Below are positions 28,418 to 64,000 of a stretch of DNA of 64,000 nucleotides, piece by piece. Under the pieces are notes generated by a model. That model was not told the origin of the DNA. It made no database searches and saw nothing but the letters and a program-made list of their open reading frames with translations. The position numbers and the translations under genes are program-made. How positions within the stretch are numbered: position 1 is the first letter of the stretch; every line of letters begins with the position of its first letter. The stretch covers positions 620,001 through 684,000 of the forward strand of contig NZ_CP046276.1 in assembly GCF_009730595.1 (NCBI RefSeq), read 5' to 3'. Source of the stretch: Spiroplasma tabanidicola. GTDB lineage: Bacteria > Bacillota_I > Bacilli_A > Mycoplasmatales > Mycoplasmataceae.

Positions 28418-28440
28418 ATAATTTATTTTTGTTCTTTTTT
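28402..28440 (+). terminator. Strong terminator of ynzC, partly duplicated by the IS
   Basis: A perfect stem of about 16 bp (AAGAACAAAAATAAAT / ATTTATTTTTGTTCTT) with a 1-3 nt loop is followed by T residues. Its right arm falls in the 31-bp direct repeat that flanks the IS element; the second copy is at 29910-29940. Confidence 0.85.
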
Positions 28441-28441
28441 G
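28410..28441. repeat. Left copy of the 31-bp direct repeat flanking the IS
   Basis: The sequence beginning AAAATAAATAATTTATTTTT and ending in TTTTTTG recurs at 29910-29940. A target site duplication of this length is typical of IS1202-family insertions. Confidence 0.8.
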
Positions 28442-28449
28442 TTGATTGT

Positions 28450-28465
28450 AAGCGATTATGTCACA
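28450..28465 (+). repeat. Left terminal inverted repeat core
   Basis: AAGCGATTATGTCACA, the exact reverse complement of 29884-29899. Confidence 0.85.
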
Positions 28466-28478
28466 AAAAAACAATATA

Positions 28479-29831
28479 TTAATATATGCTTCTTGTATTT
28501 ATTCTTTTCTTATTAAAGAAGTATGAATTACTATATTTTCATGAACTTTCAATTTTTGGTGGTTTAATAGACTCTAGTTCTTCTTTTTTAATTGTATATT
28601 TATTACCGTGAAGCCTATTTCATCTATTTCTATTAAGTTATATACATCATTACCAATTGAAGAATAATATTTATTATCCTGAGTTTTCATAACCATAACT
28701 TTTGTTTTTGGTTTTAAATACAGCGGCTCATACCCTGAACAAACAAACCATTTTTATTATCATAATCAATACTTGAACCTTTATTGACGATTCTTGTGGT
28801 TCTATATGAAAAAACAATATTTGGATTTTCTGTAAATTTTCTTACAACTGATTTACAATTATCAATAGGAGTTGAATATTTTTTATTATATTCTTTAATC
28901 AGTGTAGGTAAATAATCATTTAACTCTTCAATTGTTTTAATATTTTTGATTCGAATTCTTTGAGGCCATCTTCTTTGAAGGGTGCCAAAAGTTCTCTCAA
29001 CCAAAGCTTTTTCTTGTGGTATAGAGGTAGTTTTTGTTGATACTTTTAAAGAATGAAAAATAAATTGCAATTGAGTACGAGACTCTGAATACCCTTCAGA
29101 GTCTCTATTTATTTTAGAGCTAAATACATTTCGATTGTCAGTTACATTCTTAATAGGAATGCCATAATTTACAAATGTTTCTTTATAAACACGATAATAA
29201 CTCTCTGTTTTTTCTTGCTCGCTAAAATGTCCTGCTAAAATTATTTTTGTTGACTTATCAATTACAATGTGTAAATGACTTTTTACTCCCTTAATCCACT
29301 CGTGATTTGAAGCATCTGCTTCAAAAATTGCCCCAAAGTTTGTTTCTCTTTTTTGGGTTGGGTGAGGGTGTTTTAATAATGGAATTTTATTTTTGATTAT
29401 AACTAATGGGTCTAAATCATTGTTTAATCGCTTTGTTCTTAATCTAATTTCTTTTTTGGTTTTTTTATGCATACTAAAAACTAACTCATTATTTTCTTTC
29501 ATTATATTTCTTAATGAAGAATAGCTAATTTTATCTTTTCAACAATTTCTCAATAATCTAACATACTAAAATCATAATATTTTAAATTATAAAGACTAAT
29601 TATTTTTTCTTTAATATCATGATCTATTTTATTTCTTGGGATTTTCCCAGTGTTTTTATGAATAAAAGCTTTTGGTCCAATTTTTTTATACTCTTTTAAC
29701 TTTCTATATGTGTGTTTTTTTGATCAACCAAGAGTTTCTGCGCTTGTGTTTATGTCATGTAGTTTATTAGATAAACCTTTTATAACCTCTAATTTAACTT
29801 GTTTCATTATGTCTAATTCAATTCCTTTCAT
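28479..29831 (-). pseudogene. IS1202-like DDE transposase, frameshifted
   Basis: The gene starts at ATG 29831 with a helix-turn-helix region (SAETLGWSKKHTYRKL). It shifts by -1 near 29530 into the catalytic frame (up to 28714), where the DDE residues are seen in EADASNHEW, VTDNRNVF and ALVERTFG. Just after 28730 the homology moves to another frame (YEPLYLKPKTKV) and again by -1 near 28635 (RLHGNKYTIKKEEL), ending at 28479. One -1 shift could be programmed; three make a dead copy more likely. Confidence 0.75.
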
Positions 29832-29857
29832 AATTTTGCCTACAAGTATATTGTACT

Positions 29858-29903
29858 TGTGACATAATCGCTTGTTAATTGTTTGTGACATAATCGCTTG
29901 TTA
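29858..29903 (-). repeat. Doubled right-end repeat of the IS
   Basis: The 20-bp sequence TGTGACATAATCGCTTGTTA occurs at 29858-29877 and again at 29884-29903, 26 bp apart. The outer copy is the terminal inverted repeat. Confidence 0.85.
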
Positions 29904-29909
29904 TTCATA

Positions 29910-29940
29910 AAATAAATAATTTATTTTTGTTCTTTTTTGA
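29910..29940. repeat. Right copy of the 31-bp direct repeat
   Basis: Matches the sequence at the left edge of the IS. It carries only the right half of the ynzC terminator stem plus its T run, and precedes the tkt leader. Confidence 0.8.
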
Positions 29941-29987
29941 TAACAATTTAATTATAAATATATAATTTAAATATAAGGAGAAGTTAT

Positions 29988-60236: not shown

Positions 60237-61510
60237 AAGTATGCAAAATGTTTTTTTATAAGAATACTTCAAAATTATTTTAATATTCTTTTTTTGAAAT
60301 AAAACCGATATTAACATATGCTTGAGGTCCATTATGTTTAATCATTATTCTTGTATAGTTATAAAAATCTAAATAATTATCTATTATTTTTTTTAGATTA
60401 ATAAAGCTATTTTGTTTTAGTTTCTTTTTTATTATTCTTTTAGTAAAGAAAAAAATTTTACATATTACATTATCAATAGAGTTACCCAGCCTAGATAATT
60501 ATATTATCGAGCTTTTTTGCATATCGTATTGCAAATGCAAATGTGTACTATATTTCGTTATTAGAATTAATAATAAGTTTTTTAAAAATATCTTTTCTAT
60601 GAAACAAAACTTTCTCTAGTGATTTTTTATAAATATTTATATCTTTTTTTAAAGATACTTAATGACCAAATATAAATACAGTATTTGCATCTTTTATAAC
60701 ACTTAAATATGCAAACTTTTTTTAAACTGTATATAAGTTACATTTGTAACTCATAACTCATTTTTTGAATATATAGATCAAATCCTATTAAGATGATTGA
60801 GTCATGTGTTATATTTTTAACTTCATTTTGTTTTCTATGCATTTTTTTTATTCTTATAATTGAATACAGTTTAAATATTTTCATTATTCTAGTTACTTTA
60901 GTTTGACTAACTATAACACCTTTATTATTCACAATTATTTTTATTTTTGGCATCCTATAAATTCCATTGTGTTTAATGAAAATATCTTTTATTTTATAAG
61001 CTAAATTATTAGCTAATTTTAAGTCATATTCTGGCTTATTTTTTTTGCAACAGCTATAATAACTATCTCTAGTTATATTTAATAATTTACATAAATAAAA
61101 AAATTGTATATTTATTTTTATATTTATCTATTGTTTTGTAGAAATTAATTATTCTTTTTCTGAATTCTCCATTAGTTTATTATACTTTTTTAAAACATCA
61201 TTCTCCATTTTTGATATTTTTAGTTTTTTGTTAAGTTCAGTAATTTTCTTATCTTTTGGATCTTTTGAATTAGTTCTAATTTTTCCATTATATTTGTTAT
61301 GCTTTTCTATTTTTTATATAAGTGATTCATCACCATAAACTTTTCAATCTAAACACATTTTTCTAACTGTTGAGTATGAATGTTGTAAATTTTTGATAAT
61401 TATCTAAAAAAAAAATTTTTGATTAAAGTACTTATTTATTAATTTTTTTTAGTATTAAATTTCATAATACTTGATACATTTCCTTTTAAATTTGCCATAA
61501 AAAAATTCTC
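60237..61510 (-). pseudogene. IS3-family element remnant (orfA and orfB fragments)
   Basis: On the minus strand, orfA begins at about 61498 (MANLKGNVSSIMKF after AAGGAG) and continues in shifted frames with STVRKMCLDWKVYG and a coiled coil (KKITELNKKLKISKMEND). orfB pieces follow: LCKLLNITRDSYY and IKDIFIKHNGIYRM, then VIVSQTKVTRIMKIFKLYS near 60900, and the C-terminal FYNYTRIMIKHNGPQAY at about 60330. There are several frameshifts and stops. Imperfect ends AAGTATGCAAAATG near 60237 and AAGTATACATTGTG near 61550 may be its inverted repeats. Confidence 0.7.
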
Positions 61511-61704
61511 CTTATGTAATTTTATGTTTTTTTCAACACAATGTATACTTAGAGAATTATATTCAAGTTTTTTATTAAGTTTATCTTAATTTTTTTAAAT
61601 TAAGTACTCAATCAGTTTACTAATAGTTTTTTCAGTAATAAGAATAATATTGTTAATGCAAATTATTATTTTTTTTTCATTTATTTCTATAAATAGGCGG
61701 AAGA
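61511..61704. other. A/T-rich spacer next to the CRISPR array
   Basis: I see no gene, no tracrRNA anti-repeat and no clear leader in this 194-nt stretch. It contains runs of T and a possible IS3 end near 61550. It borders the first repeat of the array. Confidence 0.6.
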
Positions 61705-64000
61705 GTTCTACTACTACATAATTTTACAGGGTACCATAACTTGTATATTTTTTTTCTACATAATCTTTATGTTCTACTACTACATAATTTTACAGGGTAC
61801 CATAACAAGGAGAAAAATTATGTTTAAAGCTTTATTGTTCTACTACTACATAATTTTACAGGGTACCATAACAATGAAGCAGCGTTAAAAGTTTTGTTGT
61901 TAGTTCTACTACTACATAATTTTACAGGGTACCATAACGGGCTGTAAATGCTTTTGTAAGTTGTGCCAGTTCTACTACTACATAATTTTACAGGGTACCA
62001 TAACTATATAATAAAGCCAACATATCAAAGTTTAGTTCTACTACTACATAATTTTACAGGGTACCATAACTAACTGACCATGTATTGATCTTTACTAGAA
62101 GTTCTACTACTACATAATTTTACAGGGTACCATAACGGTTTGACGACCTTATATCTATTCTTTTTTGTTCTACTACTACATAATTTTACAGGGTACCATA
62201 ACTGATATATTCTAAATATTGATTTGCTAATGGTTCTACTACTACATAATTTTACAGGGTACCATAACAAAAACCTGATTATATTACTTATCAGTTAAGT
62301 TCTACTACTACATAATTTTACAGGGTACCATAACTTGTATTTAGAAAACTCAAAAGTAATAGTAGTTCTACTACTACATAATTTTACAGGGTACCATAAC
62401 CATTAGCAAGTTGGTTGTCTTTATTTACAAGTTCTACTACTACATAATTTTACAGGGTACCATAACACGGCGTTGCTAACCCAGAAGACTTTGCTGGTTC
62501 TACTACTACATAATTTTACAGGGTACCATAACTGATTTCCAGGACAAAAAAGTAGCTTGCCTGTTCTACTACTACATAATTTTACAGGGTACCATAACTA
62601 AATAAACTTTTCATTTTATCTAAATATCGTTCTACTACTACATAATTTTACAGGGTACCATAACTAGGAGCAATTAGCCTTGTAAGAATTGTATGTTCTA
62701 CTACTACATAATTTTACAGGGTACCATAACAAGATGTACATTTTCATAAATCAAACATATGTTCTACTACTACATAATTTTACAGGGTACCATAACTCTG
62801 CTTATTATTCTCTCTCACATTAAATAGTTCTACTACTACATAATTTTACAGGGTACCATAACTAAAAGTAGTCATCTCATACTCACTAAAAGGTTCTACT
62901 ACTACATAATTTTACAGGGTACCATAACTAATATTTTATTTAACTCTTCTAACGCTCAGTTCTACTACTACATAATTTTACAGGGTACCATAACTTGTAT
63001 TGTTTATCTTCAATAGCTTTAGCAGTTCTACTACTACATAATTTTACAGGGTACCATAACTGACTAATCAATAGGGACGCTCCCCTTAAGGTTCTACTAC
63101 TACATAATTTTACAGGGTACCATAACAGGGGGTTTTATCAACAAATTGGAAATACCGTTCTACTACTACATAATTTTACAGGGTACCATAACCATCATAC
63201 TAAATAACATATATATCTAAATGTTCTACTACTACATAATTTTACAGGGTACCATAACGAAAACACAACTCTGTTATAGACATGTTTTGTTCTACTACTA
63301 CATAATTTTACAGGGTACCATAACATATATGATTCTTTAAATGTATTTCTATATGTTCTACTACTACATAATTTTACAGGGTACCATAACATAATAATTG
63401 TCAATGTAAATAAAAGGAGGGTTCTACTACTACATAATTTTACAGGGTACCATAACCTAAAAATATCGCTATCTCTAATTCTAATTGTTCTACTACTACA
63501 TAATTTTACAGGGTACCATAACTGACTAATCTTTTGTTTTTAAACCCTATCAGTTCTACTACTACATAATTTTACAGGGTACCATAACACTTCTCTTTTA
63601 ATTTCTCTAATCTTTTAGGTTCTACTACTACATAATTTTACAGGGTACCATAACCATACAACTTTTTATAATCATCTTTTTTAAGTTCTACTACTACATA
63701 ATTTTACAGGGTACCATAACTAGAAACACAAGTAGTCTTGCCACTATGTCGTTCTACTACTACATAATTTTACAGGGTACCATAACAATCAAGTTTGCTT
63801 GTTAATTGTTTTGCTTGTTCTACTACTACATAATTTTACAGGGTACCATAACATATATACATGTTTATTTTAAACTCTATATGTTCTACTACTACATAAT
63901 TTTACAGGGTACCATAACTTAGATATGTTTAAAACTAATTCTGTCGATGTTCTACTACTACATAATTTTACAGGGTACCATAACGATTTAGATGGAATGA
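61705..64000 (-). CRISPR. CRISPR array, 35 identical repeats, continues past the window
   Basis: The repeat is 36 bp and begins GTTCTACTACTACATAA and ends GGGTACCATAAC on plus. It recurs at exact 66-bp steps from 61705 to 63949 with 34 complete 30-bp spacers and 16 nt of a 35th. All 35 repeats look identical. The length and the GTT...AAC ends fit type II systems. Read on the minus strand the repeat (GTTATGGTACCCTG...) resembles the Streptococcus thermophilus CRISPR1 repeat, so I infer crRNAs from the minus strand and a leader, and perhaps cas9, beyond the right edge. The strand call is inference. Confidence 0.95.

Follow-up and report, generated by a model that had tools for sequence, protein, structure and literature searches.

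A type II-A CRISPR-Cas9 locus beside a regular repeat array in Spiroplasma tabanidicola

Related systems and the repeat array

Type II-A systems have been published for S. turonicum, S. helicoides, S. litorale, S. gladiatoris and other spiroplasmas (Ipoutcha et al. 2019, PMC6882279). The system presented here is an addition to this already known Spiroplasma type, with which it shares cas9, cas1, cas2, csn2 and a tracrRNA, genes in genetic code 4 and 36-bp repeats, while its spacers and array length are different. According to Van Orden et al. (2017, PMC5382924), group-1 II-A systems, which carry a long Csn2, use ATTTGAG as the integration motif at the leader end. The same leader end is present here, as is a Csn2 of roughly 310-320 aa with the S. 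thermophilus Csn2 structure 3ZTH as its top fold match. Unlike in that group, csn2 is separated from repeat 1 by only 27 bp, and an extra conserved CTTG precedes ATTTGAG. The Cas9 resembles SaCas9 (5CZZ/5AXW), a compact II-A Cas9, in size class and nuclease domains and aligns with it from end to end; in the PAM-interacting region, mollicute Cas9 diverges from SaCas9 (PMC6882279).

The window, i.e. the whole analysed stretch of 64,000 nucleotides (genome positions 620001-684000, the genome position being the window position plus 620000), ends inside the array. An exact search of the window retrieved 35 exact copies of the 36-bp repeat GTTCTACTACTACATAATTTTACAGGGTACCATAAC at 61705-63984 (minus strand), with a period of 66 bp at every step and 34 spacers, all of 30 bp and all different, in agreement with an earlier note on this DNA as regards the repeats and their spacing. 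No near copies of the repeat were found elsewhere in the window. Spacer 35 is split by the window edge (first 16 bp at 63985-64000, minus strand), and a genome search showed that the repeats (minus strand) run on to 64182 in extended window coordinates (genome position 684182, +182 bp). In total, the array holds 38 identical repeats and 37 mutually distinct spacers of 30 bp. In the complete genome, a single contig of 1,284,335 bp, no copy was found outside the array at up to 3 mismatches and a reversed-pattern control gave 0 matches; a chance origin of the array is excluded. The regular 66-bp period could also be expected of a plain tandem repeat or a surface-protein repeat, a reading with virtually no probability left, as it is refuted by the unique spacers and, as described below, by an anti-repeat that matches the repeats, by the adjoining cas operon and by the prophage that the spacers match.

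The identical repeat occurs in four congeneric genomes (G009, G010, G011 and G019) in 37 to 97 copies, and related repeats were found in G015, G140, G069 and G183. In these relatives, the outermost repeat has 0-3 mismatches. The earlier note had taken the undecayed outer repeat at 61705 as a sign of activity; the repeat is indeed perfect, but this carries less weight than was given to it, given the relatives and an end that may not be original. About 200 bp away from the distal end there is a broken IS3-type transposase remnant (60440-61540, minus strand), whose frames are interrupted and whose HTH_21 fragment scores below the Pfam cut-off; it is a neighbour of the array and not a part of the system. 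The distal flanks show no relationship between any of the species compared, including G009. Therefore, the distal end need not be the original end of the array and, as it probably is not, the perfect outer repeat needs no special explanation.

The cas genes, tracrRNA and leader

Directly to the right of the array, csn2, cas2, cas1, the tracrRNA and cas9 follow one another, all on the minus strand and in genetic code 4 (coordinates in extended window coordinates, i.e. genome position minus 620000). The remark in the earlier note that no cas gene is in view holds within the window itself, which would fit an orphan array that is either served in trans or has no Cas proteins to serve it. It does not hold beyond the edge, where the csn2 stop codon lies 27 bp from the leader-proximal repeat; with a complete cas operon at this distance, the orphan reading is refuted by the flanking sequence and is left with a very slight probability. 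The expectation that cas genes would be found to the right of the window was thus borne out, with cas9, cas1, cas2, csn2 and a tracrRNA with an anti-repeat all present past 64000.

All four reading frames are intact. Cas2 (65139-65462, minus strand, 107 aa) and Cas1 (65452-66357, minus strand, 301 aa) were identified as type II proteins with curated profiles and PADLOC. For csn2 (64210-65139, minus strand, 309 aa), the PADLOC Csn2 profile matches over the full length (E 3e-113), while no Pfam or NCBIfam match was obtained for its product. The predicted structure (mean pLDDT of 77) matches Csn2 structures, best of all the long Csn2. The presence of csn2 indicates II-A and not II-C, which refines the type II assignment of the earlier note. 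Cas9 (66483-69692, minus strand, 1069 aa) is intact and was assigned by curated profiles. Its RuvC and HNH domains are intact, with the catalytic positions D9, E508, H588, N611, H734 and D737 present and invariant in eight relatives. Its identity to the Cas9 of G009 is 97-98%, and the next three follow at 65-69%. A scan of genome contigs with the single Cas9 as query gave no match, and with a Cas9 alignment only a 29%-identical Mycoplasma Cas9 was found. Just upstream of cas9, there is a weak match to the Mycoplasma sRNA MCS4 (L010:8730-8786, plus strand; 30.3 bits, E 0.26, under the gathering score).

The tracrRNA (about 66365-66446, minus strand) consists of a perfect 26-nt anti-repeat followed by a nexus hairpin and a terminator hairpin, and is preceded by a promoter recognised from its sequence, TTGACT-N18-TATATT (66461-66490, minus strand). 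Rfam gave no tracrRNA match at this site. The element is conserved in the relatives, and its duplex with the repeat, which includes the usual bulge, has a predicted energy of -44.4 kcal/mol. This pairing places crRNA transcription on the minus strand, where the repeat reads GTTATGGTACCCTGTAAAATTATGTAGTAGTAGAAC; the strand proposed earlier is the same, and the orientation of the cas genes agrees with it. The leader end ACTTGATTTGAG (64183-64194, minus strand) lies directly before the right-most repeat. Its ATTTGAG is exact in 7 of the 9 related loci, with one-base variants in G069 (ATTTGGG) and G183 (ATTTGAC). Since this motif sits at the right-hand end, new spacers enter there and 61705 is the oldest end, as the note had supposed.

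Taken together, the array almost certainly belongs to a complete type II-A CRISPR-Cas9 adaptive immune system of a small Mollicute that has no cell wall. In such a system, Cas1, Cas2 and Csn2 (with Cas9) would add 30-bp pieces of invader DNA at the right-hand end, with ATTTGAG as the guide, and the array would be transcribed leftward on the minus strand. The tracrRNA would pair with each repeat, RNase III, for which a gene was found in the genome, would cut the duplex, and crRNA-guided Cas9 would cut matching phage DNA. A degraded II-A locus was seen in another genome (G018:C2, L043), where the cas9 frame is broken by a TAA and only a weak cas1 fragment and a tracrRNA-like element are kept; no array was found at that locus.

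A candidate promoter, consisting of a -35-like and a -10-like element, lies across the junction of the leader and repeat 1 (64163-64192, minus strand). Within the Spiroplasma group, the CTTG block, which is conserved, forms TTGATT together with ATTTGAG, and TAAAAT or TAGAAT follows in repeat 1 after a spacing of 18 bp. It is possible, though rather doubtful, that the array promoter of Mollicute II-A systems is split in this way, with a -35 at the leader end, overlapping with the integration motif (CTTGATTTGAG), and a -10 in the first repeat. The hypothetical -10 would be TAAAAT here and TACAAT, TATCAT or TATAAT in mycoplasmas, i.e. the GTACAAT motif. Each added repeat would then restore the promoter, with transcription starting immediately ahead of the newest spacer. 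A -10-like hexamer starting at repeat positions 11-18 was found in 27 of 27 sampled Mollicute II-A loci, which are related by descent (shuffled mean 8.9, maximum 18). The -35 at a spacing of 18 bp is conserved in the Spiroplasma group only, and a promoter scan of the AT-rich stretch gave no excess (28 versus 26.1). The mycoplasma repeat motif GTACAAT was reported without explanation in PMC6882279, the main text of which does not contain the word 'promoter'; a split promoter, if true, might explain why this motif is conserved.

Spacer targets

Convincing protospacers were found for only 4 of the 37 spacers. All four match one region of G005 with 1-4 mismatches, where shuffled spacers gave 0 matches. 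As it encodes a terminase large subunit, the region (L076:12249 to L077:9432; G005:C1, about 540-557 kb) is read as a prophage; apart from the terminase, nothing in it was recognised by PHROGs or Pfam. No Cas9 match was obtained in G005. At up to 5 mismatches, no further protospacers of this array were found in eight more prophage regions from seven genomes. Among INPHARED phages, a single match, to a Sulfolobus virus, was attributed to chance. The same holds for the best chromosomal match, that of spacer 8 to an scpA-like gene, with 4 mismatches including the PAM-proximal base, which was judged not to be self-targeting.

Several genomes of the family encode terminases related to that of the G005 prophage, and none was found in a scan of viral contigs. 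A terminase of the same protein family as the G005 one is present in none of the 7 genomes of the genus that encode a II-A-type Cas9, this genome among them, and in 4 of the 13 others, which is suggestive only, the numbers being too few for significance.

SaCas9 has NNGRRT as its PAM. In comparison, the PAM-side flanks of the four protospacers are TCGAATT, TCTAGCA, GAGATGA and AAAAGAT, with an A at position +4 in 4 of 4, so that an A at +4 is tentatively proposed as a candidate PAM element from only four sites.

Spread of the locus and array turnover

From the leader rightward, a block of 12.3 kb (G000:684183-696483, L010:3184-15484) is 93-100% identical to G009 in each 500-bp block, and this identity ends sharply at genome position 696,483. 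The cas genes are 95-99% identical (cas9 98.1%, its third codon positions 96.1%), versus 67-80% for syntenic background DNA sampled from the window; at the protein level, GlyA is 86% and ComEC 58% identical. Besides the cas genes, the shared block carries a DUF2828 pseudogene, a TauE-type transporter, a PTS EIIBC and a family-1 glycosyl hydrolase. At its right edge, an rpiR-type regulator is cut (L010:15158-15508; 116 aa, compared with 253 aa in G009) and a DDE transposase fragment lies beside it; the left side of the locus meets the broken IS3-type transposase. No tRNA was found at the edges of the block. This array and that of G009 have no identical spacers. Because the locus stands out from the background and no spacer is shared, the best reading of these comparisons is that the module moved recently between the species, or from a common donor, and that its memory was then fully replaced. 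CRISPR transfer between spiroplasmas has been proposed before (PMC6882279).

Elsewhere in the window, a stretch of about 1.5 kb (28438-29976) has several copies in G009 with 80-94% identity and is likely a mobile element. A large protein with AAA_11, AAA_12, REase_MTES_1575 and DUF4011 domains is encoded near the G009 CRISPR locus, and the G011 array is flanked by a protein that resembles it in its start and its size (L149:9296-12724 and L036:355-3825); it looks like a second defence gene.

The broken transposases found here to the left and right of the locus would also be compatible with an inactive relic, i.e. a system acquired intact and now silent, with the array as a static record. Such a relic is improbable, given four intact cas frames, repeats without decay and spacers that all differ from those of a 95-99% identical locus. 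A frozen array as such is conceivable, but is made less likely by the fact that all spacers differ from those of G009. The view of the earlier note that the array is maintained is supported. From the intact genes, the array turnover and the phage-matching spacers, we infer that the complete II-A system is probably active, with expression, cleavage and ongoing acquisition.

In this minimal bacterium, the striking array at the window edge is thus part of a compact Cas9 system that is complete and probably functional. Its spacers lead to a prophage family of the genus that is still mostly unannotated, and the comparison with G009 offers a clear natural case in which a CRISPR module appears to have spread between Spiroplasma species and its memory to have been completely rewritten.
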